This document shows positions 1,508-57,600 of a DNA stretch of 64,000 nt, in pieces (position 1 is the stretch's first letter; each line of letters begins with the position of its first letter). Where the stretch lies: contig CACRXP010000170.1 in NCBI GenBank assembly GCA_902702965.1, forward strand, positions 583,906 to 647,905, written 5' to 3'. The notes under the pieces were generated by a model. The model was not told the DNA's origin. It searched no databases and worked only from the letters and a program-made list of their open reading frames with translations. The translations under genes were made by a program, and so were the position numbers. This DNA is from Spirometra erinaceieuropaei (Eukaryota; Platyhelminthes; Cestoda; Diphyllobothriidea; Diphyllobothriidae).

Positions 1508-2790
1508 ATGACATTCACGGAACACCTTTCCCATATAAAACCAGTTTTCTGGACTACAAAAGCAACTATTACTATTATTCCAGTATTTAAGTCTGGCTGT
1601 CGTTCTGACGTTCAGAACTATCGAGGTGTCCATAAAACGCCTACTCTCGCTAAAACGTTGAAAAATTATTGCCTTAAAAATTTCCGACTTTTGCATAGCC
1701 AATCAAGTTATTAGCTCTTCCTAGCATGGTTTTTACTAGATCGCACTTGTTAAACATGTCATTTGTCGTCTCTCAATCTAATTACCTCTCTTCGTAATGA
1801 CCATTTATCTGTTGTCGTTATTTATTTGGATCTTTGTAAAGCCTTCCATAAAGTGCCACATAAAAGACTGTTGGTTAAAGTAGAAGCTGTGGGAATTCGC
1901 AGTCTCCTAATAGACTTCCTCAGGTCATACTTGTCTAATCGTAAACAAAAGGTTTTGGTGGGATCTTCACTTTCCAGTGAAAGCCCTATTGTAAGTGGTG
2001 TTCTACAAGGCACCGTTTTGGGTCCTCTTTTGTTCCTGCTTTACTTAAATGATATTTCGGCAGCAGTTAAGCATTCTCAATCATTTATTTATGCCGATGA
2101 TCTCAAATGTGTATATTCTTTCCAAAATCTACGAGCCTTCATTGCCTGGAGCAAATCCATGCTGACTTGCTTGCTCACTCAGCTTGGAGCTCAAAATGGC
2201 TAATGGAATTCTCTCCGTCTAAATGTCGCTATGTGTTTTGAACCTGATAGGCTACCCCAACCAGTGGTCCTTCGAGGCATACCTATGACTGAATGTACCA
2301 CCATCAATGATTTAGGTTTAAGCTACACTAGTAAGCTTGATCTCTCGCCACACGCTGACAGAATTACAGCCAATGCTGCCCCGATTTGTGGCCTTATTTC
2401 TTAAAATGTCTGTCTTCCTGAAATTAAATTAAGACTCTATCGTATGTTTGTACTTCCCAATCTCGAGTATTGTTGCCCATTCTTTGGTTTGATGAATGAA
2501 GCTAGTCGTTTAAAAACTGAAAATGTCCAAAGACGTTTTTCTAAAAACTTTTAGATAAGGAACATCCCAATATCTCCTACTCAGATAGATGCCAGCTAAT
2601 TAACCTAAACTTTTTTGTGTTCGAAGACTAGAAGCGGGCCTCTGTCTCCTCTTCCGCATTTATAATAGTTCGAATCTGCCTCGGATTTCAGCACTTACCC
2701 CTAGTAGTCTTAAGTCAGTTTAAGTCAGTTTGTTAAGGGAATGAGGCTTTCGCCCTTGAGCTCCCTATTCATATCGATAAACAGAAATAA
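1508..2790 (+). pseudogene. Non-LTR retrotransposon RT remnant (family B, CR1/Jockey-like)
   Basis: This is the fingers, palm and thumb region of a LINE reverse transcriptase broken into several frames. The piece at 1508-1714 carries IPVFKSGCRSDVQNYRGV. The longest open piece (1763-2203) carries YLDLCKAFHKVPHKRLL (motif A region), SGVLQGTVLGPLLFLLYLND and FIYADDLKC, the YADD catalytic box. From 2204 to about 2600 the reading continues in another frame to LEYCCPFFGL and VQRRFSKNF, typical of the C-terminal end of these proteins. Stops occur at about 2403 and 2552, and the end is degenerate. It resembles the minus-strand copy at 30.7-32.9 kb more than the other RTs here. Confidence 0.88.
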
Positions 2791-6754: not shown

Positions 6755-9700
6755 ATGTTTTGTAAGTTGTCATCCAATCTACATTTCTGTAGCTGTAGAC
6801 CACTTTCTTCCTTTTACACAGAGTATTTACTCGATACTATATCACAGCGATTCGGGTAACGGTTGGCTAAGGAATTTACGCTTTTCCCACAGGATGTGTT
6901 TCAAACTGTTTTATTTCACCTCTCAGCATCTATTCGGTACTCTGTCAACTTCTGGTTGGAAGTGAAGGAAACACAAGAGCTGAAATTCTTCGCATACTTA
7001 AACTTGAAGCGTCAGAGAAACTTGACGCAATAATTAATTATGTTTGTGAACATATCACATTCAACTCAAAAGACGGGCAGGAAACAGGTACCACGCAGGC
7101 CAGTGGAATTTTCTTGCAGTCTGGCCTTGGCATATTGGATTCATACTCTAAAAGTGTCCAAGAGCACTTTGGCGCTTCATCAATTGAGGTAAACTCCTCA
7201 AACTATCCTTGATATACGTATTTTAAATTCAAATTACAGGTTGACTACGTAAACAAACCAGATGACTCACGTCGTGTAATCAACCAGTGGATCGAAAGTC
7301 GAACCAACGGAAAAATCAAAGAGCTGCTGCCAGACGGGGCAATTAGCAGTCTTACTAGGTTTGTTATCGCAAGCGCTGTTTATTTTAAAGGTGAGCACGT
7401 ATTATATCTATTCATGTTTAAAGGTATTTGGAAGGAAAAGTTTGCGCCAGCAGCAACAACTTCCGGAAAATTTTATCCATTAAACGGTCAGGATATGAAC
7501 ATGCTTATGATGCAATCTAGGAGGAAGCTTTTTTTCGCTGAGTTCAACGAAGAATTGGGAGGTCGGGCCGTGCGTCTTCCGTTTGAACGGTTCGTCCAGT
7601 GTTCGGTTTCCTCTTTGCCGAATCTATTGAACTCCCTTAACGAATTTCTCGTACATCCACATGTTGTCAGTAACTATAAGCCTTCATTTAGTGGTGGAGT
7701 TTGCGTTTGAGGTGAATAATTAACCGGTATTTTCTCCATCCTGTCTTCATCGGTTTGTCCAAATCTCTTGAGTTTAAAAAGGCAAACTATAAGTCTGGGT
7801 GCCTTTGCTCCAAGCACCCGCTCTGATATTAACTTCAAGGGTAACACGAATGCCAGAACTAGACTTTTATAGACAGTTGGAAAGCGCTGCCAAAAGACAC
7901 ATCGAAACTACTTTTATCGTCCACTAGACGTATATAGATTTAAATAGTTGGGAGTCATAGCGGTCTTGTGTCAGAACTCTGAACTTAGCGGACTCTCCAA
8001 GGCTGTTTTACAATTTCTCAATGAATGAATGGGCGTTAAAGCACTCAGTGTGGGATCTTATCCTCCAAACCATGTTTCACTTATTGAAACAATATTCCGA
8101 ACCGAAATCGAATACATGTAATTGACTGAAGAGCATACTTTCACCGGGACGAAGTGGACAGTTTTTCCGACAAAAGCCACCTTAAACGTTTTGGCATAAC
8201 GAACCTGTAACGGGTATTTTGGATAGCCTCAGACGACGAATAGGTGCCCGACGGGTTCGGCTGACTTATTGGCTAAAGATATTTTCTATTTACCAGTAAA
8301 AGTGCATTTATTTTCAGAAGTAATCTTCATAATGAACACGTACTTGATACAGTCGCGACAGTTTCTTTACTAGCCGGCCTCGACGATGCTGCGGATTGTA
8401 TCTATCCACACCCTCCTGAAGGTCAGGAGGCCACCTCCATGTGAGATAACTCCTTCATCGCAGTTTCTTGTTAGGCAGCGGTATCAAACACTGTCAGCTT
8501 TATTGCTATTTTTCAACGACTGTGAACCGTTTCTTTTGAGGAGTTTGTGTACGTTACTAAATAACGTTTTTTCAGTCAGCGGTAGTCTATTTACACCGTC
8601 TTATATTATCGCAGTCCAGCATTCGTTACCGTACAGAAGTAACCACACGGAAGATTGCCAACACCTGCAGCAGCATCGGTTTGAACGATGATATCGTTCG
8701 TGGTCTATCTGTCTAGCGGCCACTTCGCTCCCTCAGACAGAGAGCTACTGATTAAAAAGTGTGTCTTTTTTGGCCATGGGCGTTGTTCGAGAATACTTTG
8801 AGTTCCGCGGCGTTAGTGAATAATCCGTTCAATCAGGCAACTAATGGGCAACTAACATACTTTGCCCGTGTGGGGCGGAATCACTAGAGCAATCAAAGTC
8901 GATCTGTCAGTGTTCTGGCACAGGTAACGTGCCATCAAAGACGCGTTATTTCCATAAGGTGCCGTTTTTCCACAAGCAGTCATTGTACTAAACTTGTGTT
9001 TGGTGCAGCCCTGACGAAACCCACGCCTGATGAGCTCTAACAACGGATCGGAGGGGATCGATCCGTACTTTACCTCAGCAACGACAACTGGACGTTTATG
9101 AGCAGGAATCTGTCCCCGTGTCTGGTTGGACGGTTTTGAGATAACCTCTTAGTCGCTGTCCCCGAGTAAGCACAAGGGCCGAATGAATGGCAATAACATC
9201 GGGCTCTCGAGGTTTATTTTCTTCGTCTCACTGAGGGCAAACTATTTCATTTTAGAAGAAAGTGATATACCTCGCCCTAGTAAATATTTTCAAATACCGC
9301 AGCCAAGCGCCTCCAGTTTCCCATTTCAAGCTGGTCAGAGAGGGATAATAGACACTGGTCATAGCAATGATTCTTGCGGATACACTGTCTGGCTCCATTA
9401 TCCGTCATGATTATCAGAATCGAAAGCTGCAACAAGGACAGTCATGCAAAACTGCATGTGCTGTAGAAGGATGGAATTCCGCTTCTGAGTGGAAAACTTA
9501 CCAGGAACAAAAGCAAAGCTGTCACTTCGACTCAGTTATTCTTGTGATCACATCGCACGCACTTTATGATCATTTTTCAGAGTCCGTAGTGCATCTTAAC
9601 TCGAGTTATCTGTACAGACAGAGGTAAGGTCCTTGGACTAACCGCTTGATTTTCGTACCATCGAGTGAATTGGAAAATCCACCCACCATTCTCGAAGAGT

Positions 9701-12370
9701 GAGGACGTCATTGATGCTCACTTCCCGGCTTTGTCTGCAACGAAGTCGCCAATCATATCGTACACGAGGTCATTCAGTGCAATGAACCAGCATAGTTGCA
9801 GCAAAAAAAACAAAAGTAGCCAATATCCCGGTTCGGTCATTCCACCTACCGGCAACCATCAGCTGATCGGGGTGACGAAGTCTTTTATCAGGTACGTGCA
9901 GTTGTGAGTGCATCTTTACTGTGCTGGTAGGTAACTGGTTCTATCGTGTGGACGGAAACGATAGAGATGTTAGTAAAGGTCTCCCTTTCAGACAGAGTGG
10001 GTTAGGCGTCCGTTTTGTCATTAACAGAGAAGCCGCCGCCACCTGATGTGAAAAAAGTGTATTTAATTCTTCCTCCAATCTTTCCCACCCTTCAGTCAGG
10101 AAATGATCATTGTGTTGCCCAATTCGAACGATGGACTCCCCGCTTTACTACAGAAATTACTGGAGCCATCCCAAGGACGGCTATTCAGTGACATCATTTC
10201 TCGTGATGTTTACCATCAGGTGGAAGTTCGAGTGAGACTGCCGAAGTTCAAGCTAACGAAAGGCTGCAGCCAGGACTTGAAGAAAACTTTGTCCGCCCTC
10301 GGAATGCCGTCAGCATTCGATGCCAGCAAAGCTGACTTCTCGGCAATAACCGGTCACAGGGATCTCTTCTTGTCTGCTATGTTCCACAAGGCTGTGATTG
10401 AGGTGTGTTTAATGTTACTTTTATATTTTCTATATATGCTACTTGTTTGTAGAGTAGGTATTACGTGGTTATTCCACTGTACTTGATTGTCTTCGACTCA
10501 AATTTTCGTTGAAATTTCGGGTCTGACTGTAAAAGGTTAAATCCCGCAGGCTTAACCCCACGTTTTGCACTGAAAGTGGTAGTCCAGTAGCTTCATCGCG
10601 TACGTCTTCATAAACGCTTTTCCCTCTTCGTCCTACCTTTCCTCTAGTAGGTTATTAACGACCCGCAGGGTCAATTCTTCAGGTATGGAGGTGATTATAG
10701 AGACGACGTCAGAAGATACCATTATCTCGTCGAGAGCTATTACGACGCCTCTGAGTTTTTCCTGGAAGTGCTTTGAAGATACGGTTGTGTGTTCTGAGCC
10801 GTCCGTTAGCTTCTCCAAATGCTTGGCAAGCCATTTAGCCAGTCCGTAGGTGGGTGTGCCTTTCAACGCCACAATTGGTCGTAGAGGCACACCTGGTTTG
10901 TAGATTTTCGACAAATCATTGAAACGCGCTAAGGCAGCATCATGTGGTTCCATCTGTCTCAAATCCTTTTCTGATATTACCCTTTGGTTATTTATTTGAT
11001 CCAGGCTCCTATTGGTTTTGTCTACCAGTGTGTTTATGGGGTCAGTGTCGACGACCATATGACTGGTTGTCATTTAACAGCTTCCGAGCTTTTGCCGCGT
11101 ACTCTGGCATGCGTAAGACTACGGTTGCCCGCCCTTCGTCCGCCGGAATAATGACAATTTCTTCGACCTTCTTTACATATGCATATATATGAATAACGGA
11201 AGTAGTTTGTATTCCGAGACGATATAATAAAAGGAGAAGGGTCGTCGGAAAATCGAGATATACTCGTGAATTTTCAAATCCGTTACACCAACCATATATG
11301 CATGCACACACTGGACACTGAACACAAATTTGCATTGGAGAACACTCGCATTGTTGGCGCCTGCCCAATAAGGAAAGGCCGCGAATTCCTGGAGGCAATG
11401 CACTCCATGCATCAATCGGCATATTGATTCAGATGTCGCATACAACTTTCTGAAGGACAAATGGAAGCGAGCGCAGCCAGTGCCAATGGGATGACGAAAA
11501 ACCATTGGCGCAGGCTTCGGCCAACCATAGAATCACTGGTTCGACACGGTTAAATAGTTAACTGTTTTTGTACATAACCCAAAAGTCTGACGACGAGCTG
11601 GCGAACCAGACTCGAAAATTTACGCATTAAAGGTTATTCTCTTCCCAAAGAATCTTACTTATTTTTAATTAAATTTCTTGGGATTCCCGTTTTCCAGCAC
11701 ATATATATGGGTTCGAGTGAGAATCTGAAACATCAGGCCAGTAAACATTTTGTCCCAGTGATGGCAACTTCTTTTTCTTCTGTTCTCATGCATTCTAAAT
11801 TGTGAGCCAGCCGGGTAGCTGGACGCTCATTGGTCAGGTCACGGAACATGCTTGTTCCGTTGTGCCTTGGGGCTCATATAAGAGCCCTCGCAGGTAGTCG
11901 CACACCGACCAGTAGTGGAAGTAATTGAGATGATACCGACAAAGACAAGGGAAACCGAAATTGCTATTTCTGGCTTATTAACCGTCATCAGCCAGTCATA
12001 CCTAACCCAAAGTGTGGATCACTGGGGAACCAGACTCGAACATTTACGAAATAAAGTTTGCTCATTTTCCCAAAGGACCTATTCTTCTTCGAAATATATA
12101 TATATATACATGCATATGCATATATAAAGATGACGAAGAGTCCTTTCTGCATTCAATTTTGTTCCCTCTAATGCCCCTCTATCGTTTTAGGTGGACGAGA
12201 GCGGTGCGGAGGCCGCTGCAGCCACCGCAGCCGTTGCAAATACACGATGTATGCCCATAAATATGCCGCAGGATTTCATCGTGGATCATCCGTTCCTCTT
12301 CTTCATCATCAGCGAGACCGGACTGCCAATCTTCATGGGTCATGTCGTTGAGCCTGAGTCGAACAGCTAG
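6755..12370 (+). CDS. Serpin, complete seven-exon gene, predicted P1 Arg
   Basis: Serine protease inhibitor of the serpin family. Coding exons: 6755-6761, 6793-6855, 6893-7188, 7240-7390, 7424-7589, 10096-10402 and 12191-12370. All introns are GT-AG and the phases agree, giving 389 aa that start MFSVDHF with no signal peptide. The protein is therefore probably cytosolic or released non-classically. Helix A is followed by NCFISPLSIYS. Other landmarks are TNGKIKELLP (about 145-154), SAVYFKG-IWKEKF (167-179), EMIIVLPN (230-237), KFKLTKG, and the hinge E333-S-G-A-E-A-A-A-A-T342. Counting 17 residues from E333 puts P1 at R349 and P1' at C350. FIVDHPFLFFI (359-369) fits the serpin signature. By family knowledge an Arg P1 suits trypsin- or thrombin-like targets. 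Introns 1-4 are 31, 37, 51 and 33 nt; introns 5 and 6 are 2506 and 1788 nt, intron 6 carrying mobile elements. The 7-nt first coding exon and the donor at 7590 (GTTCGT) are the least certain points. Confidence 0.92.
7590..10095 (+). other. Serpin intron 5
   Basis: A 2.5-kb intron between the exon ending LPFE and the exon starting QEMIIVLPN. The acceptor is preceded by a pyrimidine-rich stretch, and TTCAG ends at 10095. Small open frames inside (8386, 9183, 9367, 9665) match nothing I recognise, and I see no clear mobile element. Confidence 0.7.
10633..11175 (-). mobile_element. Penelope-like element RT fragment (N-terminal part)
   Basis: Minus-strand reading gives IPADEGRATVVLRMPEYA (11042-11165 frame) and, after one frame change near 11060, a 146-codon stretch with LSKIYKPGVPLRPIVALKG, PTYGLAKWLAKHL and VSSDVVSIITSIPEE. 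This order is characteristic of Penelope-like RTs: a PADKG-type motif, a KxHKP-PLRPI-type motif, then S-DV-S-FT-IP containing the first catalytic Asp. The catalytic YVDD part and GIY-YIG tail are absent. It lies inside serpin intron 6, antisense to the gene. The missing half of such a protein appears at 50.3-51.3 kb, but I cannot show the two are the same family. Confidence 0.85.
11695..11790 (+). mobile_element. Copy of the hammerhead-like short repeat
   Basis: Contains GGGTTCGAGTGAGAATCTG then GAAACATCAGGCC and ends TTTTGTCCCAGTGATGGCAAC followed by a TTC-rich run. It belongs to the family also seen at 19147-19282, 27490-27605 and 29900-30018. Here the CTGATGA box is replaced by AT repeats, so it would not be active even if the family encodes a ribozyme. 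Confidence 0.65.
11815..12105 (-). mobile_element. SINE-like dispersed repeat in serpin intron 6
   Basis: Shares long blocks with 38065-38300 and 57345-57600: CCGTTGTGCCTTGGGGCTC, a block starting TACCGACAAAGACAAGGGA, a block containing CTGGCTTATTAACCGTCATCAGCC, and AAAGTGTGG. In fuller copies the minus strand starts with a tRNA-like head; it is missing or degraded here. The right end (GAACCAGACTCGAACATTTACGAAATAAAG, shown in two parts at 12018-12055) is repeated at about 11610-11645. An AT microsatellite follows at 12097-12127. Confidence 0.65.
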
Positions 12371-12499: not shown

Positions 12500-14960
12500 A
12501 TCGGTGGGGTATGGATCCGGGAATTAGTAGAGAATTACTGCTAGGGGTTGAGTATGGCCATTGGGACTACAAGCAGGCCTGAATTGTCGATTCCGACGTG
12601 CTTTATATTTAACAGTTAGTATCTGATGTCGTGCTTGCTCTTCGCCATGCGGGCGTCTGCGGGGCTTACGGTCCGCAATTCTAGCATTGTAGCAAACGTC
12701 CGTAGAGTGGATCAAGTTCACAGGGACGGCAGTCGTGGCGGAAACAGGATGGCGGTGCCTCGACCAAGATTTTGTACTTCACTTGCTTTGCTGGGGCACG
12801 CTTCATGTGCCTCTCTCCAAACCCCCAATAATCGAGTTACTAACAAGAATACCCAGTCGTCCCTAATATACATTTCACCAGGGAGGAAGAACAGGAGTGC
12901 CAGGTGTCCCTCCTTGATGTTCTCGTCAGGCGCAGTCCGAAGGATGACATTGAAACGACGATTTATGGGAAGGCAGCGGAAACCATGCAGCTTCTCAGTC
13001 TCCATTGCAACCACCCGGCTGGCTCACAATCGAGAATGTATGAGAACACATTTCAGACAGACCGTGACACATTGTAGCAAACCTAGTACTTTTCGAATTT
13101 TTCGGTGTAATCTCGAAATTCTTACTACCATCTTGCAGACTTTTTTTCAGTCTAGGTTGCTACGTCTGTGTGTGATAGTTGACCTGCGAACGAAGAAGTA
13201 TCATCGAGTTTTTTTATACTACTGCTTATTTATATCTACAAAGGAGCTATGAGCCTCGAAGAGAAAATCAGCGGCCTCGTTGACTACATTGACACATTTG
13301 ACACATCGAAGTGGAAGCAAAACACAGAAGTAACTGCGAGACCCACGCAGTCAATGTTATTCTCCAGGGACGCTTAATCAGGAAATGACTAACGAGAGTC
13401 ACCGACTTTATCCGCTGTCTCTCCTCTGCTCTGGAGTAGGATACCCTTTCGAACATTAAAATGAAAAAAACTATCTATAAAAGCGACTTCGGGGACACCT
13501 AGGGTTATTCTGTAGTCCTGTAGGGGCCGTTCATCGTTGCTGCATTTGACTGTATGTCAAACCCTGATGCCATCTGCAGACACAACTAACTTTCAACACA
13601 GTTCTGTTATGTGATCGTTGACATACGGCGGAAGACTGTTGGTCCAACAACCGCATCCTGAAATACTCGATCAAAATCAATATCTGCGTTGAGTTCGCCC
13701 TGCTTGTGCAAACAGACTCCGACCGGATTTTCAAGTAGTCCTCTTACCTGGGCAATAGGATTTTCGTATAAAAATCCTGCGGCGTGGTATGTTCGCCACC
13801 AATTCGTGCAAAATAGCTGTCCGAAGGCGTGTATACGCCGCCGCCTCCGCCTATGCGTTCGCTTCCAGAGGACTCAAACAGCAACATTATCGAGCATATG
13901 ACGTGCTTCGCCATGCATTACGAACGTTTTAGAGGCCGTTGAGCCATTGCCGCGGGACCAGATGTTGGAATTGCACAGCGATCCAAAGCCACCATGTGCA
14001 ACAGAGCCAGGAAGATTAAAGACTAATTGAAACTTGAGGAGCGACCTGGGGTAGTGTGTCGCGTCCCGTGCCGAGACTGTCCTTACAACCAAACAGGTCA
14101 GACTGAACGCTTGCTCTGATCGCACACACAGGAGCATAAGCTGACTGTGCGACGAGGCGCGAATTGTCGCAAACAACTGCCAACACCTGCGAAACGGGTC
14201 ATGAGTGTGACTTCGCAGTCACTTTGATGATCAGGAACAAAACAGGCCGAGAATCGATTAAAACCTGGCCCTCAGCCAATCGACGTATCGATCTGGCGCC
14301 ATAGTACGGAGCCCTACGCAGTCACCTCCAGTCCTGTGTCACTGACGGATGATTGGCTAGTGCCCCTTATAATTCGCTCGTTCTGTTGCTGCTATCTCTG
14401 ACGATGGACTCCTATGGGAGTTTAAGACGTGAAAATAATGAGCAATTTGTTCTGATGTTTCTTGACCAGCCCTCTTCTTCACTCATACAGATACCTGGAA
14501 CCCCAGTATTCGACTACATTTGTGATGGCGGTGCTCCAACAAAACAAGGAGCCGAACGAGCCGCCGAAGGAAATAGCTTGAGAGATTTTTCTTTTCAAAC
14601 TGTCGAAATCTTCAGGAGCCTGGAGCCCACAGCTCCTAATGCGGCGGATCTTGACACAGGCACAAACTCCCCGCGTAAATGCTTATCCAGAATTCGCAGT
14701 AACATCAAAAGGCATGTAAATAGATGTTCGCATCTCGATAAAATGGAAGGAAAGGCAAAAGGCAGATGTCGTTTAGCGAGACGATGGGGCGTTAATTGGT
14801 GCACTGATTGTTTGACCTTCGAGAAGCAAGTGGTCGACCATTTGGAATTTCAGGAGGCTTATGGGCGGCTCACTTCATCCCGCCGGTCGTATACCTCGCG
14901 CCAATGCCAAATATGGCTGAACACTACGCCCCCGTTTAATTGTCAGCACCGGTCTCGCTG
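12500..14960. other. No gene recognised
   Basis: Long open frames exist at 12626-13252 and 14353-14967 (+) and 12718-13014 (-). None shows a domain, a start context or a splice arrangement I can defend, and the first two overlap open frames on the other strand. The stretch may contain the older body of the LTR element whose end is at 15.3-16.4 kb. Confidence 0.4.
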
Positions 14961-17559: not shown

Positions 17560-18310
17560 CCCATCTCATGAAATGTCAATCGGAATTCTGAAATGTGCTT
17601 TCGATTAGGAAGGATCACTTATGTGGAGAGGTAAGATCCCATCTCGTAGCCAGACATTATGAGTTGATACTGTCGAGATGCTTATTTGTAATCAGTAGGT
17701 GCGTTTGCCTTGTCGAGGAAACTTGTCATCAGTAGGTGTGTTTCTAGTGAGTTAGGCACGTCGCCCCTTTCGGTCAGGTTGTTGAACTTAGTGAGGGCTT
17801 AGGGTTAGGGTTTGCGTTTTGGGGCTATGGTTGTAGAGTTAGGTTTAAGGGATAAGGTTAGGGTTCCGGATTAAGGTCAGGGTTAGGGTTAAATTCCCTG
17901 GTTAGGGCTGGGTTTAGGTTTTAGGGTTAGGTTTAAGACTGGGTTTGAGGGTTAGAGTCAGGGTAATAGTTTTAGGGTTTAGGGTTAAGTTTAGGCCTAG
18001 GTTTTAGGGTTAGGGTCAGGATTTTTGGATTAAGGTTAGGGTTAGGTTCTAGGGTCAGTGTTTTGGTTAGGGTTTTACGATTAGAGTTATGGTTTTAGTG
18101 TTAGGTTAGCTTCCTCATTCCGGGCTACGAACTGCGGTCTGACCGGTGGGGACCCTACATTAAATAGTGTGTAACGTAATCCCAAGATATTTCAGTCGCG
18201 CCAGGATGCCAACTTTTAAATGGGCTTCTTTCTGGCCGCCTGCACGTCGACACCCGGTAAAAAAATGTCTACTCATATGGTATGAATTTTTTACATGGGT
18301 TTTTGATGCG
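17560..18310 (+). repeat. Dispersed repeat RF1, split by telomere-like sequence
   Basis: Family RF1 carries in order: CTCATGAAATGT, ATTCTGAAATGTG, GGAAGGATTACTTA, AATCCCAAGATATTTCAGT, GGATGCCGGCTTTTGAA and an AT-rich tail. Here the first half is at 17560-17660 and the second at about 18165-18310. The halves are separated by about 500 bases that include the TTAGGG-like tract 17790-18108. Other copies are at 24110-24620, 55360-55470, 59130-59610, 59760-60085 and 60490-60765. Confidence 0.75.
17790..18108 (+). repeat. Degenerate interstitial telomere-like (TTAGGG)n tract
   Basis: About 320 bases built from GGGTTAGGG, GGTTTAGGG and GTTTTAGGG words with irregular spacing. TTAGGG is the flatworm and metazoan telomere repeat by established knowledge. 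The tract is strongly decayed, so it is old. Confidence 0.9.
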
Positions 18311-19045: not shown

Positions 19046-19114
19046 GAGGCCCCACTTGATTGATACCGTATGATTAGCTTACTTAAGCAGTTTTAGTTAA
19101 CATACTTAATTTAG

Positions 19115-19283
19115 AAGCGTGCAGGCAAGTTCCAGGTAGCAGTTTGGAAGACGAAGATGCGATCACTGGAACAAGAAATTTATTGGCCTGTTGTTTCGGA
19201 TTCTCATTTGAATCCATCATCAGAGACATTCGTAGATAAAGGTGCATTCCAGGTGTGTTCCAGTGATCGCATCTTCGTCTTCT
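19115..19283 (-). mobile_element. Young foldback insertion with 13-bp target duplication; hammerhead-like core
   Basis: The direct repeat ATACTTAATTTAG (19102-19114 and 19284-19296) flanks the insert and is present once in the homologous right arm, so the boundaries are well supported. Inside, 19147-19172 and 19257-19282 are perfect 26-bp inverted repeats. On the minus strand CTGATGA (19217-19223) is followed by the hairpin GGATTC-AAATGA-GAATCC and then GAAAC (19193-19197), the order of a hammerhead ribozyme core with stem II. There is no coding capacity. The ribozyme reading is inference; stem I and the cleavage site are not established. Confidence 0.8.
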
Positions 19284-20169
19284 ATACTTAATTTAGCCAC
19301 TCGCAGGATTGGGACGGGAAAGAAAGCGTAAGCAGAGCTCGAAGCACGCGTAGGGAAGCGAGTGAAGGTAGCGTGAACATACTATCCCCCAACGTAGCCA
19401 CTCGATGGATTAAAAGGATACGTGGGACGCAATCACAACTAAAAGGCCACAGAGGGAACCGCGTGGTAATTCACAGTGCGTGGCCACTGTAGTGGGACTG
19501 ACAAAGTTCTAAGCCATCGGAACAATTCCATTAGCATGACAAGTGAATGAAACCCTCAGAATGAGCGAATGCCTAATCTCCCAGAAAATAGGCAGAAACT
19601 GTGAAACCACCGCCTTCTCTATTGTCCTTGCATCATATCGGCTCCTTCGATGAAGAACATTGAGAAGTGTAATATAACACTACATCGCTTGCTTCAGAAA
19701 CTACTAAATAAACATAAACAGACACTGGACGATGCCTCATCCGCGAATGAGAGTCCGTCAGCTGCCACTGGGATTTTGACGCATACTTCTCCACGCAAGA
19801 TCTATAAATTGTGGTAACTGTGAAAATCATAAGCGTGCCAATGACCTATAAATAGCCTTTGATATTAGATTAGAGGAACATTTCGCACCTACCCTCTCAG
19901 TAGATGAGGAGGAAATGAACTTTTTTCGTTGGTGTTTGTTCAACCAGTATGTAATATCAAAAGCGACCTGGAGAGAGTCAAGCGGAAACTTGGGAGCAAC
20001 GTGATGATGGGGTCACGTAGATGCCCTTCGGTGGAGCTATGCGTGTCCGGGCTGGAGATCAGCGTTTCCGGACTAATGTGACCCTGAGATCTTCAAAACC
20101 CGAAGCATGGTGTGTAGGAAAATAATTATGGTGGCTGCAGAATCCGGTTCTCACAGCGAATGACCTAAT

Positions 20170-20330: not shown

Positions 20331-21869
20331 GGACTCGAGCGCTATGGCCGATCAAGTTAAACAAGTCGTCCGGGTGTGTCACACGCGACCACGTTCCTCC
20401 ACAGTGGACCGGAATTTCACACCCAATAGTGTGTAGCTCATCTCCCATCTACGCAGAATTACCGAATAGACCTGATTAAGGAGGAGTAATTGCAGCCTTA
20501 CTCTCAGTCCTCCAGTCATCCACTCAAAACCCACGCATTTACACAGGACTAATTACGAGGACGGAGTTATCCGGTCAGTTGGCTACCTCCGAAGCCAGGT
20601 CTTTTAACGCGTCGTGGTGGATCCAAGCGCCTTAAATTACTTATAGTGAGGAGTGCCTTCATATGTTATGGGGAGGCGTCCCCTAATGTCGACGTCACTC
20701 ATTTCCCTCGATCTATGCACCACTCGATCGATCAAGCCTGTCTCCATTCGGGGCTGGGATTGGACAAATCGTCTGGCCTGACCTTAAAGCCTGCATCTAA
20801 GCTTTCCACGCGCCTCTGTGAAAACGTCGTGCAGCCCAGTCCTCATGGCGCATGTCCTCTTCGTCTTACACTATGCACTTTTATAACCACCAAAATTGTG
20901 ATCTATGTGTGTTGCCCCAATGTACATTTTAATTAAAGCATCTAGGTAGACGGATTAAGATTCACTTTCGATAAAACCTAAGCTCAAGAAAATGATTTAA
21001 TCAATTCACCGTCGGTGATGTTATCAAATATTGCCCCAAGGTCTTGAGGATAAGGACACAAATGCCGATCCAAGAACAGTTTACTCGTTATTCAGACGTC
21101 TTGAAAGCCCACATTCCTTCGATTTGGAGGGCAGTAATCACCCCGCACCCTACAGTGATCAGGCAAGTGTTTGAACGTGAAAAAGTCACTTGGTCCATGG
21201 CATGAGCGAGTGATTATCCTGGCAAGGCTGTTCTTTGTACCATTTCCAATGAATTTTCGGCGAGGTTCGGTTCTGCAGCCCCACCTTAGTGATATCATAT
21301 GGTAAGCTGTCTAAGAAATTGCAGTAGATTCGAGTACGCTGACGTTACAAATCTCACGTATTGGCATTCTCCTTACCATTTTAACCCAGCGAGTGACTGT
21401 GCAACGGTGGTAGGAGTGTTCATGCGTCAGCCTCGGTTACGTCAGTTATCAGTTCACACGCGCTCCCCCGCGCGTGCTTCAAGCCCTGCTTGCGCCCACT
21501 TTATTATCTTAATCCAGCGAGTGGTTAAGTGGCCTTGCCAATAGAATTGTTCCGACGGTTTCGAATTCCTTCGGTATCACTACAGTGGTCATGCACTGCG
21601 AATTATCACGCTGTTCCCTCCGTGGCCTTCCATTTGTGATTGCGCCCCAAGTATCCTCTTAATCCAGCGAGTGGCTGTGTCGGGGAGACAGTATGTACAC
21701 GCTACCTTCAATCGCTTTCCCACACGTGCATCGAGCTCTACTTGCGCTCTTTTTCCCTTCCCAATCTATCTTGTGTCTAAGTTAGGTTTGTTAACTAAGA
21801 TTATTTTAGTAAGCTAATCATATGGTATCAATCAAGTGGAGCTGCAGGGCCAAATTCCGCGAATTTCCT

Positions 21870-23610
21870 CCTCCTCTGAAGTAACTGTCCTCTAAAAGTG
21901 GCCTTAGATACCTTGAGATGGAGCCATTAGGTATTTGTTTACTGAGGATGTCTATGGGTTGCTTGTAAAGATTACGCAGTCAATGCGTTCAGGCTGTTGT
22001 CTTTTAGTTCAAGCATTCATATCACCCTTCAGACCAAGCCTAAAAAGGTTCACCAAGCTTGCGCACTCATTTGTGAGGAAATTAGAACTGCCAATGGACG
22101 CGAAGATGCGAGTTACAGGAAGCGATCGGGAAGAGAGCCACATTCGTCCGCTGTTTCGGGTCCCCAACGGAATCTATCATCGGAGACGGATACAGGTTGG
22201 GACAATGAGTTGCACAGGTGTCCCAGTGTTTGCAGGATACAGCTGTTGTGCTACTGCATACCTATCAAAATGGGCGACTTTGACACTTATCACATGGAAT
22301 TGCCCGGAGTTGTTGACTGGTCAAATTTCATCACTCATGTGCGTTCTTGGGCCAGTTGAGAGCGGTATTCCCCTGGCGCTCTCCACGGGGCTAGGCAAAG
22401 TCCAGCAAGGGTATGGTTAGTGGCCGGGGTTACTTCCTCCGGGGAGCATTTGTGTTGAGCAAAAGGGCTGAACATCTAAGAACTCTGTGGTACGGTTGTC
22501 TGGGGTCTCTGTGAGAAGGCGACTGACGGCTTGCGAGACGGCGCTCGACCGAATTTGGGGCGGTCGGATATGGTCTCTCGCCTTTTTTGCGCGTGCACCG
22601 GTTGACGAGGTTGCGCAGGTAGCCCTTTGTTGTGAGCTCTGGTCGAAGTTATTCTAATTTAACAACCTTGTCTCCCAGATTTACTGCAGCAGGTCTCAAC
22701 ATGCCGTTATAGCGTCCTTATGCTGAAAACTCATTTAAAACGCTAAAGGGGCCGGAAGTGAGTTGAAACCCGCTTAGTTACGTCATGCAGCGGCATAAAA
22801 CCCGCGAAACAGATGCCTGGGCTTTTAGCTACTACCTGCGTTATCATTATAATGCATCATGTGATGTTTGAAAGTGTAACAAAGCTAAAGACTTTTTGCC
22901 TATATTTCTTCACAACTATGCTGAGTTGTCTGCTCTTATGCGAATGATCCAGCTTAGTCATCGACGTGCACGAGACTTACCAGTGTTTCTATAAAATTGT
23001 TTACGGAATATGCGACCGATGGCTTAGTTTCCTCATGCAGTCATCATGCATACTGGGGTGACGGAAAGCCAACACGTTCACTAGTTTATGGACGAAAAAC
23101 ACCCCGTGAGTTATACCAATCAGATTGTGCGCTCAAAACAATCGGTCGACAGATCAAATACAGGAGCAAATGCTTGAAGAGGAATTCGAAAAGCACAAAC
23201 TAGCACAAGACCAATTATTGGGCGTTGAAACGTCTTCGACACTCTAATGTTCCCAAGTTGACAACTAACTCGATGTTTTGCAGAGGTAGTAGTATAAAAA
23301 AGGACTTTCAATTATGTTTCGCCTAAAAAAACATTAGTTTCGTCAGTTGGTCGCGTAACTTGCTGCAGCATCACTCTGTCCTCAGGTTACGGGACTGCAC
23401 CCTCACTTTAAGGCATCTGACGGCCCGCCCAACGGCATTACTGGTGTAGATTTCTTTGTTACTGGTTCCATTTTTTTGGGTTTTCGGGAGGCACTCGAGG
23501 CATGCCGCAATTTTGCTCAAAGCTATCACGAGTGTTGTTCCTTCAGATAGCGTCTACCCAACTGTTCTGCTATTGGCTAGATGCCCTTAACTAGTTTTGA
23601 ATTACGGTCA
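21870..23610. other. No gene recognised
   Basis: A 161-codon plus-strand frame (21935-22420) overlaps a second open frame (21997-22359) and shows no domain. I see nothing else I can support here. Confidence 0.4.
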
Positions 23611-24904: not shown

Positions 24905-27690
24905 ATGTTACCATTAACTAAACAGACAACGTTGTATGAAAACATATTGGGGTCATTTAACCAGAAGCTACTACAACTCTCCCTGAATGAATACCTCATT
25001 CAACACACAAAATTCGTAGCAAGACTGAGAGAAGGACAGCGATCTAACTGTTTAGATTTCGTTTTCAGTAAAGAAGAAGGAGTCATAAGAGAAGTGCATC
25101 CACAACCTCCATTCGGTTTAAACGATCATATTGCTTTTACCTGTGTGCCGAACCAACAACCAAAAATCAAAAGACCCAGAAATAGTTGGAAGGGTGACTA
25201 ACGCAATGAGACGTACTCTTTTGAAGGAAACCTGGTTAGTCGACATGGAAGATTCAGGAGAATACTGGCAGTACTTTCGCGGGATTATAGAGTGTCTAGT
25301 TGACTGCCATTGTCCAATAAAAAAAAAACAAGACTAAGTGCGCGACTGCCGTGGGTCAATCCGACGAAAAAAAAGATCATGAAGAAGAAACAGAGACTGA
25401 GGAAAATGTATTTTTGTCTTCGAGATCCAATGTTATGCGCCGAATATAAGGATCAGCGCAATAAATACGCAAACAAATACGGGTTGCTAGAACTTCTTTC
25501 GATAGCCGGCGGATAGCGAATCCATTACATGTCCCACGAAGTTTTACGGGTACATCCGCAGTAGAAGGAAACATAGGGACGAATTTGCGTGTCTAAAGGA
25601 TAGCCTCGGTAAGTTATTAGTTGAAGGACCACAGAAAGGGCAATTACTGTCTCAGTTTTTTCAATCGGTTTTTACGGAGGAGTCCTCAGAAGACAATCAA
25701 CAGTTTGAACTGGACCGAGACAGCCGGGAGCTTCAAATGTGCCAAGATACTGCCGTCATTGAAACTGTTGCCTTTTCCGTCGAAGAAGTAAGACGCGTCC
25801 CCAGTAAAATAAAACCTGATAAGTCTCCTGCAACCGACGGAATTCCTAGGCTGATACTTAAGGAGCTATCAACGGAGTTGTCAAAGCCTCTTTCGACTCA
25901 GAGGATGAAGATGAGATTACTGGATGCGGTCTTCTGAACTGCAACCTGGAACTCGCCTGTTCGCTTCTATCAGCCTCTTTCGACTCTCTTTGGGCTGACA
26001 ATGAGAACAGGACGGCTACCATCACAGTGGAAGACAGCTAACCTCGTTCCCTTACATAATGGAGGTAGCAGGATGGCAGCAAGCAGCTTCAGACCTATTA
26101 AATTAACTTGCCTCCCATGCGAAACGAAGGAAGCTCTAGTAAAAAGCGCTATGCAGCAGTTTTGTGAAGAAAATAACATCTTTCAGGATTTTCAACATGG
26201 CTTCCGGAGAGGACGTTCCTGCCTCTCAAATCTGCTAGCTTGTCTGGAGATCTCGACCAGGGCTCTAGAAGAGGGTTTTGAGGTCGATGTCGTGTACATC
26301 GATTTCCGCAAATCTTTCGATACTGTTCTGCACCAACGTCGTCTTCACAAACTCAGCGCCATCGGCATCCGGGGAGATCTTCTGAACTGGATTAGGACGT
26401 TTCTGGTTGGTCGGAAACAACGTGTCTGTATCGGAGATGATATGTCAGAATGGGTGAACGTGACCAGTGGTGTGCCTCGAGGGTCAGTTCTGGAGCCATT
26501 GCTCTTCATCCTTTATGTTAATGACAGACTTCAAGAACTCGGCTACAGCAAAGTAATGTTTGCCACGACATTAAGCTCTGGCATGTCATTAAGGGTCCGT
26601 ATGATCAGATATCCCTTCAAGATAATCTGCACCGACTGCAAGGGTGGCCGGAGAAATGGCTTCTAAATTTCAATGTGGAGAAGTGTGCCGTCTTTCAACT
26701 GCGTCCAACCAACTCATTCAAATGAGGGCCTGAGGGCATATCACCTGAAAGATATAAGGCTCCCTGCAGAATCTTCACAGAAGGATCTCGGGGTTTGGAT
26801 ACAGAACAACCTGAAACCGACACTGCAGTGCCACAAGGTTGCAAAAAACGCCATGGGAGCGCTCCAGGCAATCAAAAGGGCATTCGTAACCTTTGACCAA
26901 GACCTTTTTGGGAGACTTTACAGCACCTTTGTTCGATCCCACAAGCATGGCGGCCATGGCTAGTAAAGGATCAGGCATGTCTCGAACGGATACAACGTCG
27001 TGCAACAAAGCTGGTAAACGGTCTAATAAGCCAATCCTACACAGACAGACTGAGTTGCCTTAATTTATGCCCTCTGTGCTACAGGCAGCAAAGAGGTGAT
27101 CTTATCCTTTTCTACAAGATAATACATGGCCTTGAGCATGGACTTAAATTTGAGGACATGTTTCAGTGGCACCTTTCACCCAATCTTCGTGGTTACTCGA
27201 TGAAGTTACGGACAACAATGTCCAGGCTGAATCTTCGTTCTGAATTTTTCACGCAGAGGGTAGTGGAGAAATGGAACGATCTCCCTCAGTCAGTCGTGGA
27301 GGCGACGTCTCTGTAACTCTTCAAGAAACGCTTGGGTGATTATTTGTGTCCCCTGTTTTCCCTCGACAGTCTGAATCTGAACTAAATACCCCACGACCTC
27401 GCAAATTGTTTCACTGAGACAATGCTCCTCAAATGAATCAAGTACTGTTTTAATAGCGAATATTTTCATTGCAAATAGAAGCGAAGAGACGAATCCCAGG
27501 AAGCAGTCTTGAAGAAGGTGATACGATCGCTGGGACAAGAGCTTTATTAGGCTGACGTTTCGGATTCCTGCTCGAGCCCATCATTGCTCGTGTATAGTTA
27601 TTTCTAGCGAGTTGACACGTAACCAGTAGGGTTTTCAAAGGCTTTGTCTATTATCCTTACCAAATAAACTGAAAAACTGAACTGAAAGAA
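24905..27690 (+). pseudogene. Non-LTR retrotransposon (family A): endonuclease end, linker, RT, tail
   Basis: The longest family A copy. 24940-25200: endonuclease C-terminus, with LSLNEYLIQHTKFV, RSNCLDFVFSKEEGVIREV and GLNDHIAFT, the SDH-type motif as NDH. 25130-25620: linker in two further frames. 25640-26560: RT with SQFFQSVFTEE, KPDKSPATDGIPRLILKEL, MRTGRLPSQWKTANLVPL, FQHGFRRGRSCLSNLLA, VYIDFRKSFDTVLH and SGVPRGSVLEPLLFILYVND. A single-base loss at about 26563 shifts the frame inside the FADD catalytic box (MFATT). The shifted frame then reads on to SQKDLGVWIQ and RSH, and later frames to VVEKWNDLPQSVV near 27300. The end at about 27655-27690 has AAATAAACTG and AACTGAACTG tail words. A hammerhead-like repeat interrupts the 3' region. 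Confidence 0.88.
27490..27605 (-). mobile_element. Hammerhead-like short repeat
   Basis: Minus strand: ATGATGGGCTCGAGCAGGAATCC then GAAACGTCAGCC, AATAAAGCTCTTGTCCCAGC and GATCGTATCACCTTCTTC. Compared with the family pattern CTGATGA is CAATGATGA-like (one change). The palindrome ACGT directly after GAA is kept. It lies inside the 3' part of the retrotransposon ending near 27690. Confidence 0.65.

Positions 27691-29848: not shown

Positions 29849-29900
<52 letters not shown>
29778..29900 (+). repeat. (CAA)n and (GAT)n microsatellites
   Basis: (CAA)n fills 29778-29817 and (GAT)n 29848-29900, separated by 30 bases. The second ends exactly where the foldback at 29900-30018 begins. Open frames across them (poly-Thr/Asp and poly-Gln/Met) are not genes. 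Confidence 0.95.
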
Positions 29901-30018
29901 GGCGATTACTGAAACAAGAAGTTCACTGGCCTGACGTTTCGTATTCTCACTCTGATGATGGGTTCGAGTGAGAATCCGAGATGTCGGGCCTATGAACTCT
30001 TTGCTTCAATGATCGCCT
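29900..30018. mobile_element. Foldback copy of the hammerhead-like family
   Basis: Arms 29900-29951 and 29966-30018 are imperfect reverse complements, with AGGCGAT at both outer ends and ATTCTCACTC/GAGTGAGAAT at the inner ends. The loop is CTGATGATGGGTTC. The plus strand has CTGATGA, hairpin GGGTTC-GAGTGA-GAATCC, then GAGA in place of GAAA. The left arm carries the complement of GAAACGTCAGGCC. A (GAT)n tract abuts the left side and a TTC-rich run the right side, as at 11768. Confidence 0.75.
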
Positions 30019-30054
30019 CTTCCTCTTCTTCTTTTTCTTCCTTTGAACAGCCTC

Positions 30055-30387
30055 CTGAAATCCGCCTGCTTGCTTCTATCGGCAGTCTGAGAATTTTACT
30101 GATTTAAAAGTCAGAAATGTGTGTCGGAATCTGTTGAGCGTGGAACGGGACAAATTTGAATCAAAATTACTCAGGAATATACCGCGAAATTCTAAAACGT
30201 TCTTTGGATACATGGATAGGGCGAAGCGTAGCCGGGACTGATTTCCCTGTATAAAGGATTGCCAGGGAACTATGTTGCCTAATAATTTAGACAACGCGGT
30301 CATGTTTTCCGATTTCTTCACGTCTGCCTATACCGAGGAGACGCCTTCTAATAATAATAATAATAACAATAATAATAATAATAATAA
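30055..30387 (+). pseudogene. LINE linker fragment plus (AAT)n tract
   Basis: The plus strand reads RNIPRNSKTFFGYMDRAKRS and, further on, MLPNNLDNAVMFSDFFTSAY and TEE. This is the pre-RT linker common to CR1/Jockey-type proteins, where F-YV-R..K precedes D-EKA..LN-FF-SVFTEE. An (AAT)n microsatellite at 30348-30387 replaces the following RT. It may be part of the same broken element as 28390-28655. Confidence 0.65.
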
Positions 30388-38064: not shown

Positions 38065-38330
38065 TGTGTGTATGTAGGCAGAATATCGTTACCGACAAAG
38101 ACAAGGGAGACTGGAATGACACTTTCCGATTTATTAATCGTTATTAGCCACGGGCTCGTTGTCCTGTCGGTTGCGATCAGCTGTGTTGTCCAAAGGTTGG
38201 AGGGGGCGCGCACCGATCGCATTGCGGAACTTTCTCGTCCCGCTGCGCCCTGAGGTATGCAAACCCCGAGGCTCGAATTCGCGACCCTCTAACCAACAGG
38301 TCGCGAGTTTGTATGCTCATTGAAATTTCG
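38065..38330 (-). mobile_element. SINE-like repeat, rearranged copy
   Basis: Shares TTACCGACAAAGACAAGGGA, a block around TTATTAATCGTTATTAGCCA, ACGGGCTCGTTGTCCTGTCGG and, on the minus strand, GTCGCGAATTCGAGCC (B-box-like, 38275-38290) with the copies at 57.2-57.6 kb. A further piece with AATGGTAGAGAGGCG lies at 38560-38580 within an AT-rich palindromic stretch. GAAATTTCGGGTCTGA at 38316 is shared with about 10510. Confidence 0.6.
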
Positions 38331-50282: not shown

Positions 50283-51324
50283 TTAGTCAACCTTTGGCCA
50301 CGGTAAGCGCAAAGCGTGAACGAGGTTTTTCTGGGCGCATAGGGTCGGCTTTCGTAGCCTAATGGCGGCCGCTTCTGCTGTTTCGAACAGGCGCTGACCC
50401 AGTCGGTTAGGGTAGCTTGAGGAGACCTCATAAACCACAAGAAATGCTTCAGCGGGGTCCACATAATGCCCTGAATCCACTTCATGCGCAAGGATGGCGC
50501 TGGCTATTCTCCCAGGTTCACTTTTTGCCAGCAATACCTGCTCCACAGGAGCAAGTGAATGAGTAGATGCACACTGAGGTGGTCTGAGGTGGCAGCCTAT
50601 CCTTGCCTTCTCCGCGTAAAATAGGGTTAGTAGAGAATGATATGCGAACCCTTGCTGCTGCGAAGGTTCCCGAGACAGCTTGTTGAAGGCGTCTTCTTGG
50701 GAGTTCACTCGCAGCGTCTCCTTGGGAAGAGACTTCGCGGAACAACGTTTTCTTCTCGGCGGTCAGTGTGGTGAGTTTTGTGGGTCGTTCGGCAAGGTTC
50801 TTTGCAATGAACCTGTCAGAATACCCGTTTTCGCGAAGCAAGTCCTGGATTTTTTCGAGTTCTTCCTCGATGCTATCTGTTGAACAAATTTTTCTAGCTC
50901 TTTGTGCCAAACACCTGATCAGATTTCGTTTTTATTGGAGAGGCACGAAACTAGCGAAGTTCGTGTATTGTCCAGACCGGGTTTTCTTCCGATAGACGCT
51001 CCTTCGGATGTTACTGTCAGATCTCCTGCTTTGAAGGACATCCAAGAAAGAAAGCGAACCAGCCGATTCCATCTCCAACGTGAATTTGATCGACGGATGT
51101 GCTCGGTTTAGAGCATTTAGGAGGGCAGCAACGTCGGTTTCTGTGGTTGCAATCGCAAAGATATCATCAACGTAGCGACCGTAATGTGTAAGCTTTTCGA
51201 TCTGTCTCCATTCTCGGGGAAGGGAAATCGAACGGCGCTGTGTTCTAGTTCTGCGGAACCGACTCACCGGAAAATACTCACAGGCCGCTCCGAAGTAACA
51301 AGCAGCTGTTCTTTCGAAACTCAA
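50283..51324 (-). pseudogene. Penelope-like element: RT C-terminus and GIY-YIG-type tail
   Basis: The minus strand from 51324 reads HYGRYVDDIFAIA (YVDD catalytic box), LLNALNRAHPSIKFTLEMES, LSFLDVL, NIRRSVYRKKT, GQYTNFASFVPLQ, CSTDSIEEELEKIQDLLREN and GYSDRFIAKNL. A frame change in the middle is followed by TSVCIYSFTCSCGAGIAGKK, matching the GIY-YIG nuclease N-terminus with the CxC motif but with the YIG element damaged (GIAG). Another frame then gives SAILAHEVDSGHYVDPAEAF and LFETAEAAAIRLRKPTLCAQ, the usual end of these proteins. The N-terminal RT is missing. It is clearly of the Penelope class, with at least two frame lesions. Confidence 0.88.
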
Positions 51325-51329
51325 CTGGC

Positions 51330-52855
51330 AGTCCCTCTCCCCTAGCGATTCTGTTGTCGCAGAAACCCATCAAGCAATTCGCCAAAAATGTTCTTTCCAG
51401 CGCAGCAATTGCTCACTGAGCAACACGATAAAGAGGCTTGATTTCAGTCTGGTTGTTTGCTGCACCGCCAAAATTCCCTTCACTGGGCATCGAAGGAGAT
51501 GATAGAGCTTTATTTTGTCACCGACAGCGGAGGCTTGCACCAATTCCAAGGTCACACTAGGCTGGTGACAGTTTCGGTCGGCCCACACTGACTGTACTTT
51601 ATGATGACGCAGTCTCATAAACTTTTAGGCCTCCACCAGATTGATCTTGCTGCCGTTATCCAGTCCTCGGGTTTGTGGCTGCCGTGCGCTGGGTGAGTAA
51701 ACAAGGCCTCAGCAGTAGCCCTCCTGTGAATAGGGCTGATTCGTCATTCGCACAAGTCAGGTGAACATCGTTGTTTTACTGCAGACGGTTAACGACCACC
51801 CGCCAGACGCGGTATACTGTTTCAGTCTTTTTCAGTCCATGCACATGAACTCTTGAGGTCTGTTGACTTTTGTGTGCGTGTGTGTGTGCATTAACGCACA
51901 AACACAGTCCAACCCCCGCGCCAGCGTGTGGTCTGACCTATGTTTGCTGTCTGCCTCTTCATGCGACTTTGTTCATGTCTGACGTTGTCCGCCTTAATTC
52001 TCCCTGCGGGGTGGTTTTGGAATTTTCGGCACAGGCGGATCCCCAACAGCCACCAGGTTTGTCCAGGGCTGTCTGCTTTGCCCCCTCGACTCGTTGGGAC
52101 CTAATTGCCAGGTGTTGATGGAATTCAAGCCTACTGAATAGTGGTTCACGGTTGTTAGAAGACAGTTCTGTCATCGGGCTGAGCGCATTCTAGACTCCAC
52201 TCTGTGGTCGCTCTCTCTCGCGGGTGCTTATTCGTCAGACCCCAGAGTCTGTTTATTTCACAGCTGACCGTTCCACCTCCACCCCCCCCCTGCGGTCGCT
52301 CTTGGGAACCAGCAGCCAAGCCAACGGACAGATCCGTATTTGGACCGTGACCGGCTGCATGCCGTTGTTGGGTGTCCGACCTTTTTTGATGCCGCTTTCA
52401 GTCATGCTTCGACTGCACAGACCACCACCACCACCACGTCAGTGTCGCTCCTCTCTATCGGCCCTGCCCTTGCCTAACGTATGCACGCGGCGGTTGAGCC
52501 TGCCCCCTGTCATCTGTACTTCTGATCCGTGCTCGAGAGTGTAACACTGCTGCAGACTTATTTGACATGCCTGCTCCGTCTCTGCCAACATGTACTTTCA
52601 CATCAAGGTTCTTCTGCCCCTGTGACCCGAAATAACCAGCGTTGGCAATCAGAGGCAAACTCAAGACGCTAACTGCAATTCTGCCTGCTAGACCCCAGGA
52701 TTCGACCCTCACTAGCATTCTCTCTGCCATCCTGTGGGCGGTCCTCCGTTCTGGGCGCCTGTCAGTAGACTTTGCGCTCTGTTCTGTCTCGGGCCGGTAA
52801 AGTCGCATAGTTCCTTGTGAGTCGGCGGCCTGTCAACGAGTGCAGACGTTGTTTC
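51330..52855. other. Mostly unrecognised; faint LINE linker at ~51370-51490 (-)
   Basis: The minus strand contains LLSEQLLRWKEHF, a phrase resembling the linker before RT in RTE-like proteins, next to the truncated Penelope element. A GT/CA-rich patch lies at 51870-51905 and C-runs at about 52280. Nothing else is supported. Confidence 0.35.
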
Positions 52856-57179: not shown

Positions 57180-57600
57180 TCAGAAGTTGGCCATTTCTGG
57201 CTTATTAGCCGTCGTCAGCCAGCCATACCCAACCCCGGCGTGAGCAAAACCTGAGCTCCGATCCCGCCAGTTGTTGCTTAGAAGTCCAACGCCCCCAACC
57301 TCTGAACCACGGGTTCGTTGTCCTGTCCGTTTCGATCGGGTATATATAATGGTAGAGGGGCGCTCACTTGTCCCGTTGTGCCTTGGGACTCTTTCGAGCC
57401 AAATTAGCAGCCGCACAGTGGCGCGTACTGTGGACAGAATGACATTACCGACCAAAACAAGGAATGGCCACTTCTGGCTTATTAGCCGTCGTCAGCCAGT
57501 CATACCCAACCCCGAAGTGTGGCACACCTGGGGCTCGATCCCGCGACCTGTTGGTTAGAAGTCCAACAACCCTAGCCACTGCGTCACGGACTCGTCGTAT
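57180..57600 (-). mobile_element. Two adjacent tRNA-derived SINE-like copies
   Basis: Both run on the minus strand. The copy with the clearer head (57530-57596) reads GTGACGCAGTGGCTAGGG (A-box-like), GGACTTCTAACC (anticodon-loop-like) and GGGATCGAGCCCC (B-box-like). The other head is at 57250-57319. Each is followed by the shared body: GGGGTTGGGTATG-CTGGCTGACGACGGCTAATAAGCCAG (given in parts), the CCTTGTT-TTGGT block and the TGGCACAACGG region. Related copies: 11815-12105 and 38065-38330. Confidence 0.7.

Follow-up and report, generated by a model that had tools for sequence, protein, structure and literature searches.

Penelope-like elements (PLEs) are retrotransposons whose integration is still poorly understood. 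In the PLE of Anolis, the open reading frame (ORF) is reported to begin at hammerhead stem II, with the cleavage site 26 bp past the ATG, and reverse transcription to begin within the ORF, at 111-118 bp, with a 'tail' between two start sites; the enzyme is described as cutting and extending both target strands at AT-rich sites (PMC11167929). Insertion in vitro was reportedly unaffected by hammerhead mutants, and the ribozyme cleaved only when protein was added (PMC11167929). Rotifer PLE inserts are reported to contain direct and inverted pLTRs, an optional 31-bp tail and, with the tail, 22 aa of the ORF; their target duplications, where present, measure 8-10 bp (PMC3846280). For S. proliferum, 197,550 LINE/Penelope copies (9.95%) have been reported (PMC8166898). 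The word "hammerhead" is absent from the main text of two Spirometra/Sparganum genome papers, and a search of the open-licence literature, with subscription journals outside it, found no published report on the insert family described here, on Penelope together with a hammerhead in a tapeworm or, judging by the listing, on twin priming of Penelope elements.

The window analysed here is a 64-kb stretch of Spirometra erinaceieuropaei DNA, and its subject is an insert of 169 bp. This insert is very probably a dead, severely 5'-truncated Penelope-like retrotransposon copy of a diphyllobothriid tapeworm. It most likely consists of a pLTR remnant, a minimal hammerhead motif, the first ~110 nt of the ORF ('tail') and a short inverted pLTR end. 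As dead copies go it is most likely an ordinary one, if unusually clean. Elsewhere in the window, the LINE reverse transcriptase P0002 shares 89% identity over 95% of its length with a Sparganum proliferum protein, and its next matches are from Sparganum and Spirometra, which places the host among the diphyllobothriid tapeworms. A 169-bp inverted repeat (1-169 / 1228-1396, 98% complementary) is found close to a fragment of a LINE reverse transcriptase, 1754-2200(+), a degenerate interstitial telomere-like TTAGGG array spans 17794-18109, and serpin-coding ORFs, probably exons, lie at 7213-7707 and 10067-10483 on the plus strand (Pfam Serpin E 1.6e-23 and 2.7e-20).

Insert boundaries and target site

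The features of the locus are as follows; PLE sense corresponds to the minus strand.

19102..19114, unstranded: left target-site duplication ATACTTAATTTAG, its terminal TAG also readable as the element's first bases
19112..19146, minus strand: PLE 'tail' CGCTTCTA, 35 nt, from inner to outer 3' end; same outer 3' end in the 25929, 27476 and 29890 copies
19113..19229, minus strand: start of the PLE reading frame, MSLMMDSNENPKQQANKFLVPVIASSSSKLLPGTCLHAS; 82% identity over 39 aa to Sparganum P0124 and Spirometra P0125
19115..19283, minus strand: the 169-bp insert, very probably a truncated PLE
19147..19173, minus strand: inverted arm, direct copy
19190..19227, minus strand: degenerate minimal hammerhead motif, GTCT / CTGATGA / T / GGATTC-loop-GAATCC / GAAACAAC
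19224..19255, minus strand: probable short pLTR remnant upstream of the motif; LYLR before MSLMM common to P0128 only
19256..19282, plus strand: inverted arm, read as a second, inverted pLTR end beginning at the inner 3' end
19284..19296, unstranded: right target-site duplication ATACTTAATTTAG
21652..21860, minus strand: paralogous empty site, 81% identical to the insert flanks

A perfect 13-bp direct repeat of ATACTTAATTTAG, which is also the first 13 nt of family D1, stands on either side of the insert, as an earlier reading made from the letters alone (the sequence-only reading) had noted. This target is AT-rich (11/13). The insertion is real, because the flanks joined with a single repeat copy align without a gap across the site to 21652-21860(-) in an alignment within the window; this empty site is paralogous, not orthologous. 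The two arms are identical at 27/27 bp and are spaced 82 nt apart by sequence mostly without self-complementarity. They had been described as perfect 26-bp repeats, and the perfection holds while the length must be corrected to 27 bp.

Structure prediction was one of the checks proposed earlier. The minus strand of the insert folds far better than shuffled sequence (z = -7.34; 0/200 shuffles equally good), a score that the 27-bp arms dominate. Folding of the isolated core is unremarkable (z = -1.38; 20/200 shuffles equally good), and its sole stable predicted helix is the stem II hairpin. Weak Rfam matches to mir-556 and MIR1444, both below gathering scores, merely mirror the long foldback. 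A tRNA-derived SINE was rejected as ARAGORN found no tRNA, and viral contigs (exact patterns) and plasmids searched for the insert gave no match.

State of the hammerhead motif

The order of CTGATGA, a 6-bp stem and GAAAC reported for the minus strand was confirmed at 19223-19190. Specifically, CTGATGA (19223-19217) is followed by an unpaired T, GGATTC (19215-19210), the loop AAATGA, GAATCC (19203-19198) and GAAACAAC (19197-19190), so that the conserved core and stem II are present with one additional unpaired T. A candidate stem I has 4 bp (GTCT:AGGC, one G-U), and in relatives the same stem has 2 pairs (29890 copy), 1 pair (14386 copy) or 5 pairs (22101 copy, by eye). No helix III was seen in the insert. 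A descriptor of the form CTGANGA-stem(>=6)-GAAA is expected 0.12 times per 64 kb, based on 100 first-order Markov simulations of the window, and was observed twice, in the insert (19223, minus strand) and at 14615(-). The latter reads CTGAAGA-stem-GAAA with a 6-bp stem and, as far as seen, has no sequence relation to the insert family.

Hammerhead cleavage triplets follow the rule NUH, and the triplet of the insert, AAC at 19192-19190(-), fails it. Among the five other aligned window copies, the triplet is GTC in 27476 and 29890, ATC in 11707, GTG in 14386 and AGC in 22101. GAGA replaces GAAA in the 29890 copy, and CTGATGA is missing from the 27476 and 11707 copies. No relative in the window was seen to combine the two halves of the core with a permitted triplet. 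In all eight matching Sparganum/Spirometra proteins the triplet position encodes Lys-Arg-Gln, which fits GAAACGTCAG / GTC, and the insert encodes Lys-Gln-Gln. Stem II pairs in 33 of 36 cells across six copies, and slid versions reach at most 66.7%. Covariation of stem II in these six copies gave no signal over shuffles, 384/500 of which attain the score.

A search with the Rfam hammerhead covariance models had been named as a check, and Rfam 15 returned zero hammerhead matches at E<=10 around the insert or across the whole window. The test is weak here, because PLE hammerheads are described as minimal forms without helix III (PMC6155905), and the scan was likewise silent on 50172(-) and 11991(-), where further hammerhead-like cores linked to PLEs lie. 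The Rfam null alone therefore does not rule out hammerhead ancestry. Such ancestry is likely, mainly because the motif is placed at a PLE ORF start. The hammerhead has most likely lost its activity, given the AAC triplet, the Rfam null and an isolated core whose only stable predicted helix is stem II. The proposal that the insert is processed by self-cleavage is left without support by the same triplet (AAC, as against GTC in 2/5 other aligned copies and residues compatible with GTC in 8/8 proteins) and the Rfam null, alongside the report that Anolis hammerhead mutants still inserted in vitro (PMC11167929). As a ribozyme, the locus contributes little.

Related copies and recurrent 3' ends

Six further copies of the insert's family were found with nhmmer and blastn against the window.

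11680..11777, plus strand: related copy without tail (11707 copy)
14386..14501, plus strand: related diverged copy, no clear ends (14386 copy)
22101..22234, minus strand: related diverged copy, no clear ends (22101 copy)
25900..25971, plus strand: related 72-bp insert with an inverted 5' piece, inside a LINE ORF (25929 copy); flanks AGCCTCTTTCGACTC at 25885-25899 and 25972-25986
27476..27585, minus strand: related 5'-truncated copy (27476 copy); GAAACGTC kept, CTGATGA not; possible 7-bp duplication TCATTGC, by eye
29870..30078, plus strand: related copy, long foldback with (ATG)n outer end (29890 copy)

The weakest of these by nhmmer is the 25929 copy (E 0.0038; blastn E 2e-7). It has its own 15-bp duplication AGCCTCTTTCGACTC, seen by eye, which is not AT-rich (AT 7/15). 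Target duplication is thus variable in length, with 13 bp at the insert, 15 bp at the 25929 copy and possibly 7 bp at the 27476 copy (by eye); a duplication was looked for at the 29890 and 11707 copies and none was found. Several members of the family are truncated on one side. The 29890 copy forms a near-symmetric palindrome with a 13-nt centre, centred at the hammerhead core. No tandem array of the insert unit is present in the 64-kb window.

Two 3' ends, 35 nt apart, recur among the copies. The outer end, CTTCTA(T), is shared by four of seven window copies (the 169-bp insert, 25929, 27476 and 29890). The inner end is where the inverted arms of the 169-bp insert and the 25929 copy both stop, and the direct 11707 copy ends one TTC unit beyond it. 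The insert's own two outer ends coincide with this pair of ends, an arrangement resembling the two start sites of reverse transcription in published PLEs. Arms and junctions differ among the 169-bp insert, 25929 and 29890. The 22101 copy shares arm and junction with the insert weakly (17/2000 shuffles equally good), which could fit an inherited foldback. No similarity to the 22101 copy was detectable for 19224..19255 (728/2000 shuffles equally good).

Two PLEs had been reported in the window, and both were found, in broken form. The piece at 50286-51369(-), which we take to be a PLE from its motifs, matches Pfam RVT_1 only at E 0.08 and is absent among the insert's relatives found by nhmmer and blastn in the window; the second, at ~11057-11161(-), is 35 aa long. 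Directly past the end of the ORF at 50286-51369(-), the sequence CTGATGA-GAAGTTATC-GAAAGC occurs at 50172(-) and is possibly the pLTR hammerhead motif of that PLE. A second dispersed family (D7) also carries a hammerhead-like core, with CTGATGA-CGGTTAATAAGCC-AGAAAT at 11991(-) and CTGACGA at 57218(-); the core is missing, by eye, from a decayed copy at 38090-38150. The broken PLE piece 11161-11057(-) shares its strand with the 11991(-) copy, which lies ~830 bp upstream of it and may be the ORF start of that PLE.

Reading frame and matching proteins

On the strand of the core, the ATG within CTG-ATG-A opens a reading frame, which gives MSLMMDSNENPKQQANKFLVPVIASSSSKLLPGTCLHAS. Based on coordinates picked by hand, this ATG lies 106-109 nt from the outer end in the insert, the larger value including the shared TAG; in the 27476 copy the distance is 109 nt. 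Differences between the insert and the 27476 copy fall 6/10/13 on the three codon positions, and seven of 20 changed codons are synonymous, which suggests little coding selection between them. Eight Sparganum/Spirometra proteins match the MSLMMDSNENPKQQANKFLVPVIASSSSKLLPGTCLHAS stretch, with 2/5 candidates at E<=10 in one protein search and 7/38 at E<=1 in another; P0132 is the weakest (E 0.052). The stretch 19224..19255 is probably a pLTR remnant, a reading for which P0128 speaks over a few residues only.

The tie between the motif and PLEs, stated in the sequence-only reading, is supported by two Sparganum gene models. In P0129, a GIY-YIG domain is followed by a spacer and then the insert's tail peptide. 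The domain was seen upstream of the tail peptide in one protein, P0129, where its score of 23.7 bits narrowly exceeds the Pfam threshold of 22.6 (E 6.1e-5). In P0127, the tail peptide at the start is followed by an ORF carrying LVIVPADKGRSTIVLDRTDY, which we take to be of PLE type. The ORF matches the window's PLE piece 11057-11161(-) over 35 aa (54%, E 1.6e-7). A Pfam search of P0127 gave no match, and the protein's listing carries PF28514.1. The continuity of tail and ORF in P0127 is possibly a gene-model artefact, because its tail ends where lone insertions end and the protein is known as a gene model only. In the DNA of the 64-kb window, no full-length PLE bearing this tail was seen.

The matches P0124, P0125, P0128, P0130 and P0131 carry the PLE tail N-terminally or internally and are likely annotation artefacts of PLE insertions; judged by eye, they are presumably tail insertions in LINE, LTR or other gene models. 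By eye, P0130 and P0131 end near the inner site.

Origin of the insert

In the proposed mechanism, a PLE enzyme would make staggered cuts, 13 bp apart, in an AT-rich target. From one of the resulting ends, reverse transcription would be primed at the outer start site, which lies early in the PLE ORF, and this first synthesis of ~140 nt would pass the ORF start, together with the minimal hammerhead motif that overlaps it, and enter the pLTR. The opposite end would prime a second synthesis of 27 nt from the inner start site 35 nt upstream, yielding the inverted arm, after which the two products would be joined and the stagger filled. Such two-sided target-primed reverse transcription would explain why the outer ends differ, why the inverted arm is short and how the duplication came about. 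We put forward this course of stagger cut, two primings and joining tentatively, at somewhat less than an even chance. The general view that these small inserts of tapeworms preserve the traces of two-sided PLE priming at two fixed sites 35 nt apart, with products joined head to head, is similarly plausible and short of probable; it is rated no higher in view of the 11707 end, which is displaced by one TTC unit, and of the 25929 target, which lacks AT richness.

The main rival keeps the PLE identity and has the foldback arise by snap-back, with a cDNA doubling back and using a stretch of itself as template. A comparable self-priming, in that case from an antisense template, has been put forward to explain the palindromes of rotifer PLEs (PMC3846280). 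Snap-back would be expected to leave arbitrary outer ends, yet the inverted arms of the insert and of 25929 share the inner 3' end, and the 82 nt between the insert's arms are mostly not self-complementary. Together with that published proposal, the near-symmetric palindrome of the 29890 copy, with its 13-nt centre, and the 27/27 identity of the insert's arms count in its favour, and we consider it somewhat unlikely.

The sequence-only reading had proposed a small non-autonomous element mobilised by PLEs. PLE machinery most likely made the insertion; the independence of the element is not supported, given P0127 and P0129. The same sequence follows a GIY-YIG domain in P0129 and heads a Penelope-like ORF in P0127, so the insert most likely does not belong to a separate ribozyme family. 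An independent family of retrozyme-like SINEs that uses PLE enzymes and passes on the foldback within its RNA is accordingly improbable, the more so as arms and junctions differ among the insert, 25929 and 29890, no tandem unit array occurs in the window and helix III was not seen. It would draw on the weak sharing of arm and junction by 22101, and on small size, target duplication, hammerhead-like core and GC content (0.41 across 19141-19286), traits that metazoan retrozymes are reported to share (PMC7229834; PMC7761336).

A MITE or DNA transposon does not fit, since one arm lies 32 bp inside the element end and the duplications (13 and 15 bp) are not fixed in length. A chance hammerhead look-alike within an unrelated MITE or other repeat is highly improbable: the Rfam null, a stem II covariation not over shuffles (384/500) and an isolated core folding no better than chance (z -1.38) would agree with it, and against it stand the varying length of the duplications (13, 15 bp), which is unlike a DNA transposon, the one-sided truncation of several copies and the placement of the motif at the PLE reading-frame start, as in published PLEs.

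If two-sided priming is the true origin, the inverted pLTRs of PLEs would be explained without self-priming on an antisense template. Where an insert is this short, and its two ends, its target duplication and a paralogous empty site can all be seen, counts of end positions could separate two-sided priming from snap-back; such a count is practical, given that S. proliferum is reported to contain ~200,000 LINE/Penelope copies (PMC8166898).

Comparison with known systems

Metazoan non-LTR retrozymes resemble the insert in small size, target duplication and a hammerhead-like core. Unlike them, the insert has no tandem units in the window and no helix III, and its relatives adjoin PLE coding sequence. 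Minimal type I hammerhead ribozymes of PLEs have reportedly been described by Cervera and De la Pena in 2014 and Lunse et al. in 2017. The insert is like these in having CTGATGA, stem II and GAAAC in order, with helix III not seen; it is unlike them in its AAC triplet, in the unpaired T ahead of stem II and in a candidate stem I of only 4 bp with one G-U.

The closest systems are endonuclease-containing PLEs such as Poseidon PAc of Anolis and Penelope of Adineta vaga and Drosophila virilis. The insert departs from these in its extreme truncation (169 bp), an ORF limited to the first 36-39 codons and a decayed hammerhead. Its would-be cleavage position lies 31 nt past the ATG, compared with 26 in the Anolis PLE; its duplication of 13 bp is longer than the 8-10 bp of rotifers, and its ORF part with the tail (~38 aa) is longer than the 22 aa of the rotifer PLE. 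The insert shares with these elements a hammerhead motif at the ORF start, a 3' end within the ORF start, an optional tail of 30-40 bp, a direct and an inverted pLTR, and, as reported for them, an AT-rich target and a target duplication (PMC11167929; PMC3846280).
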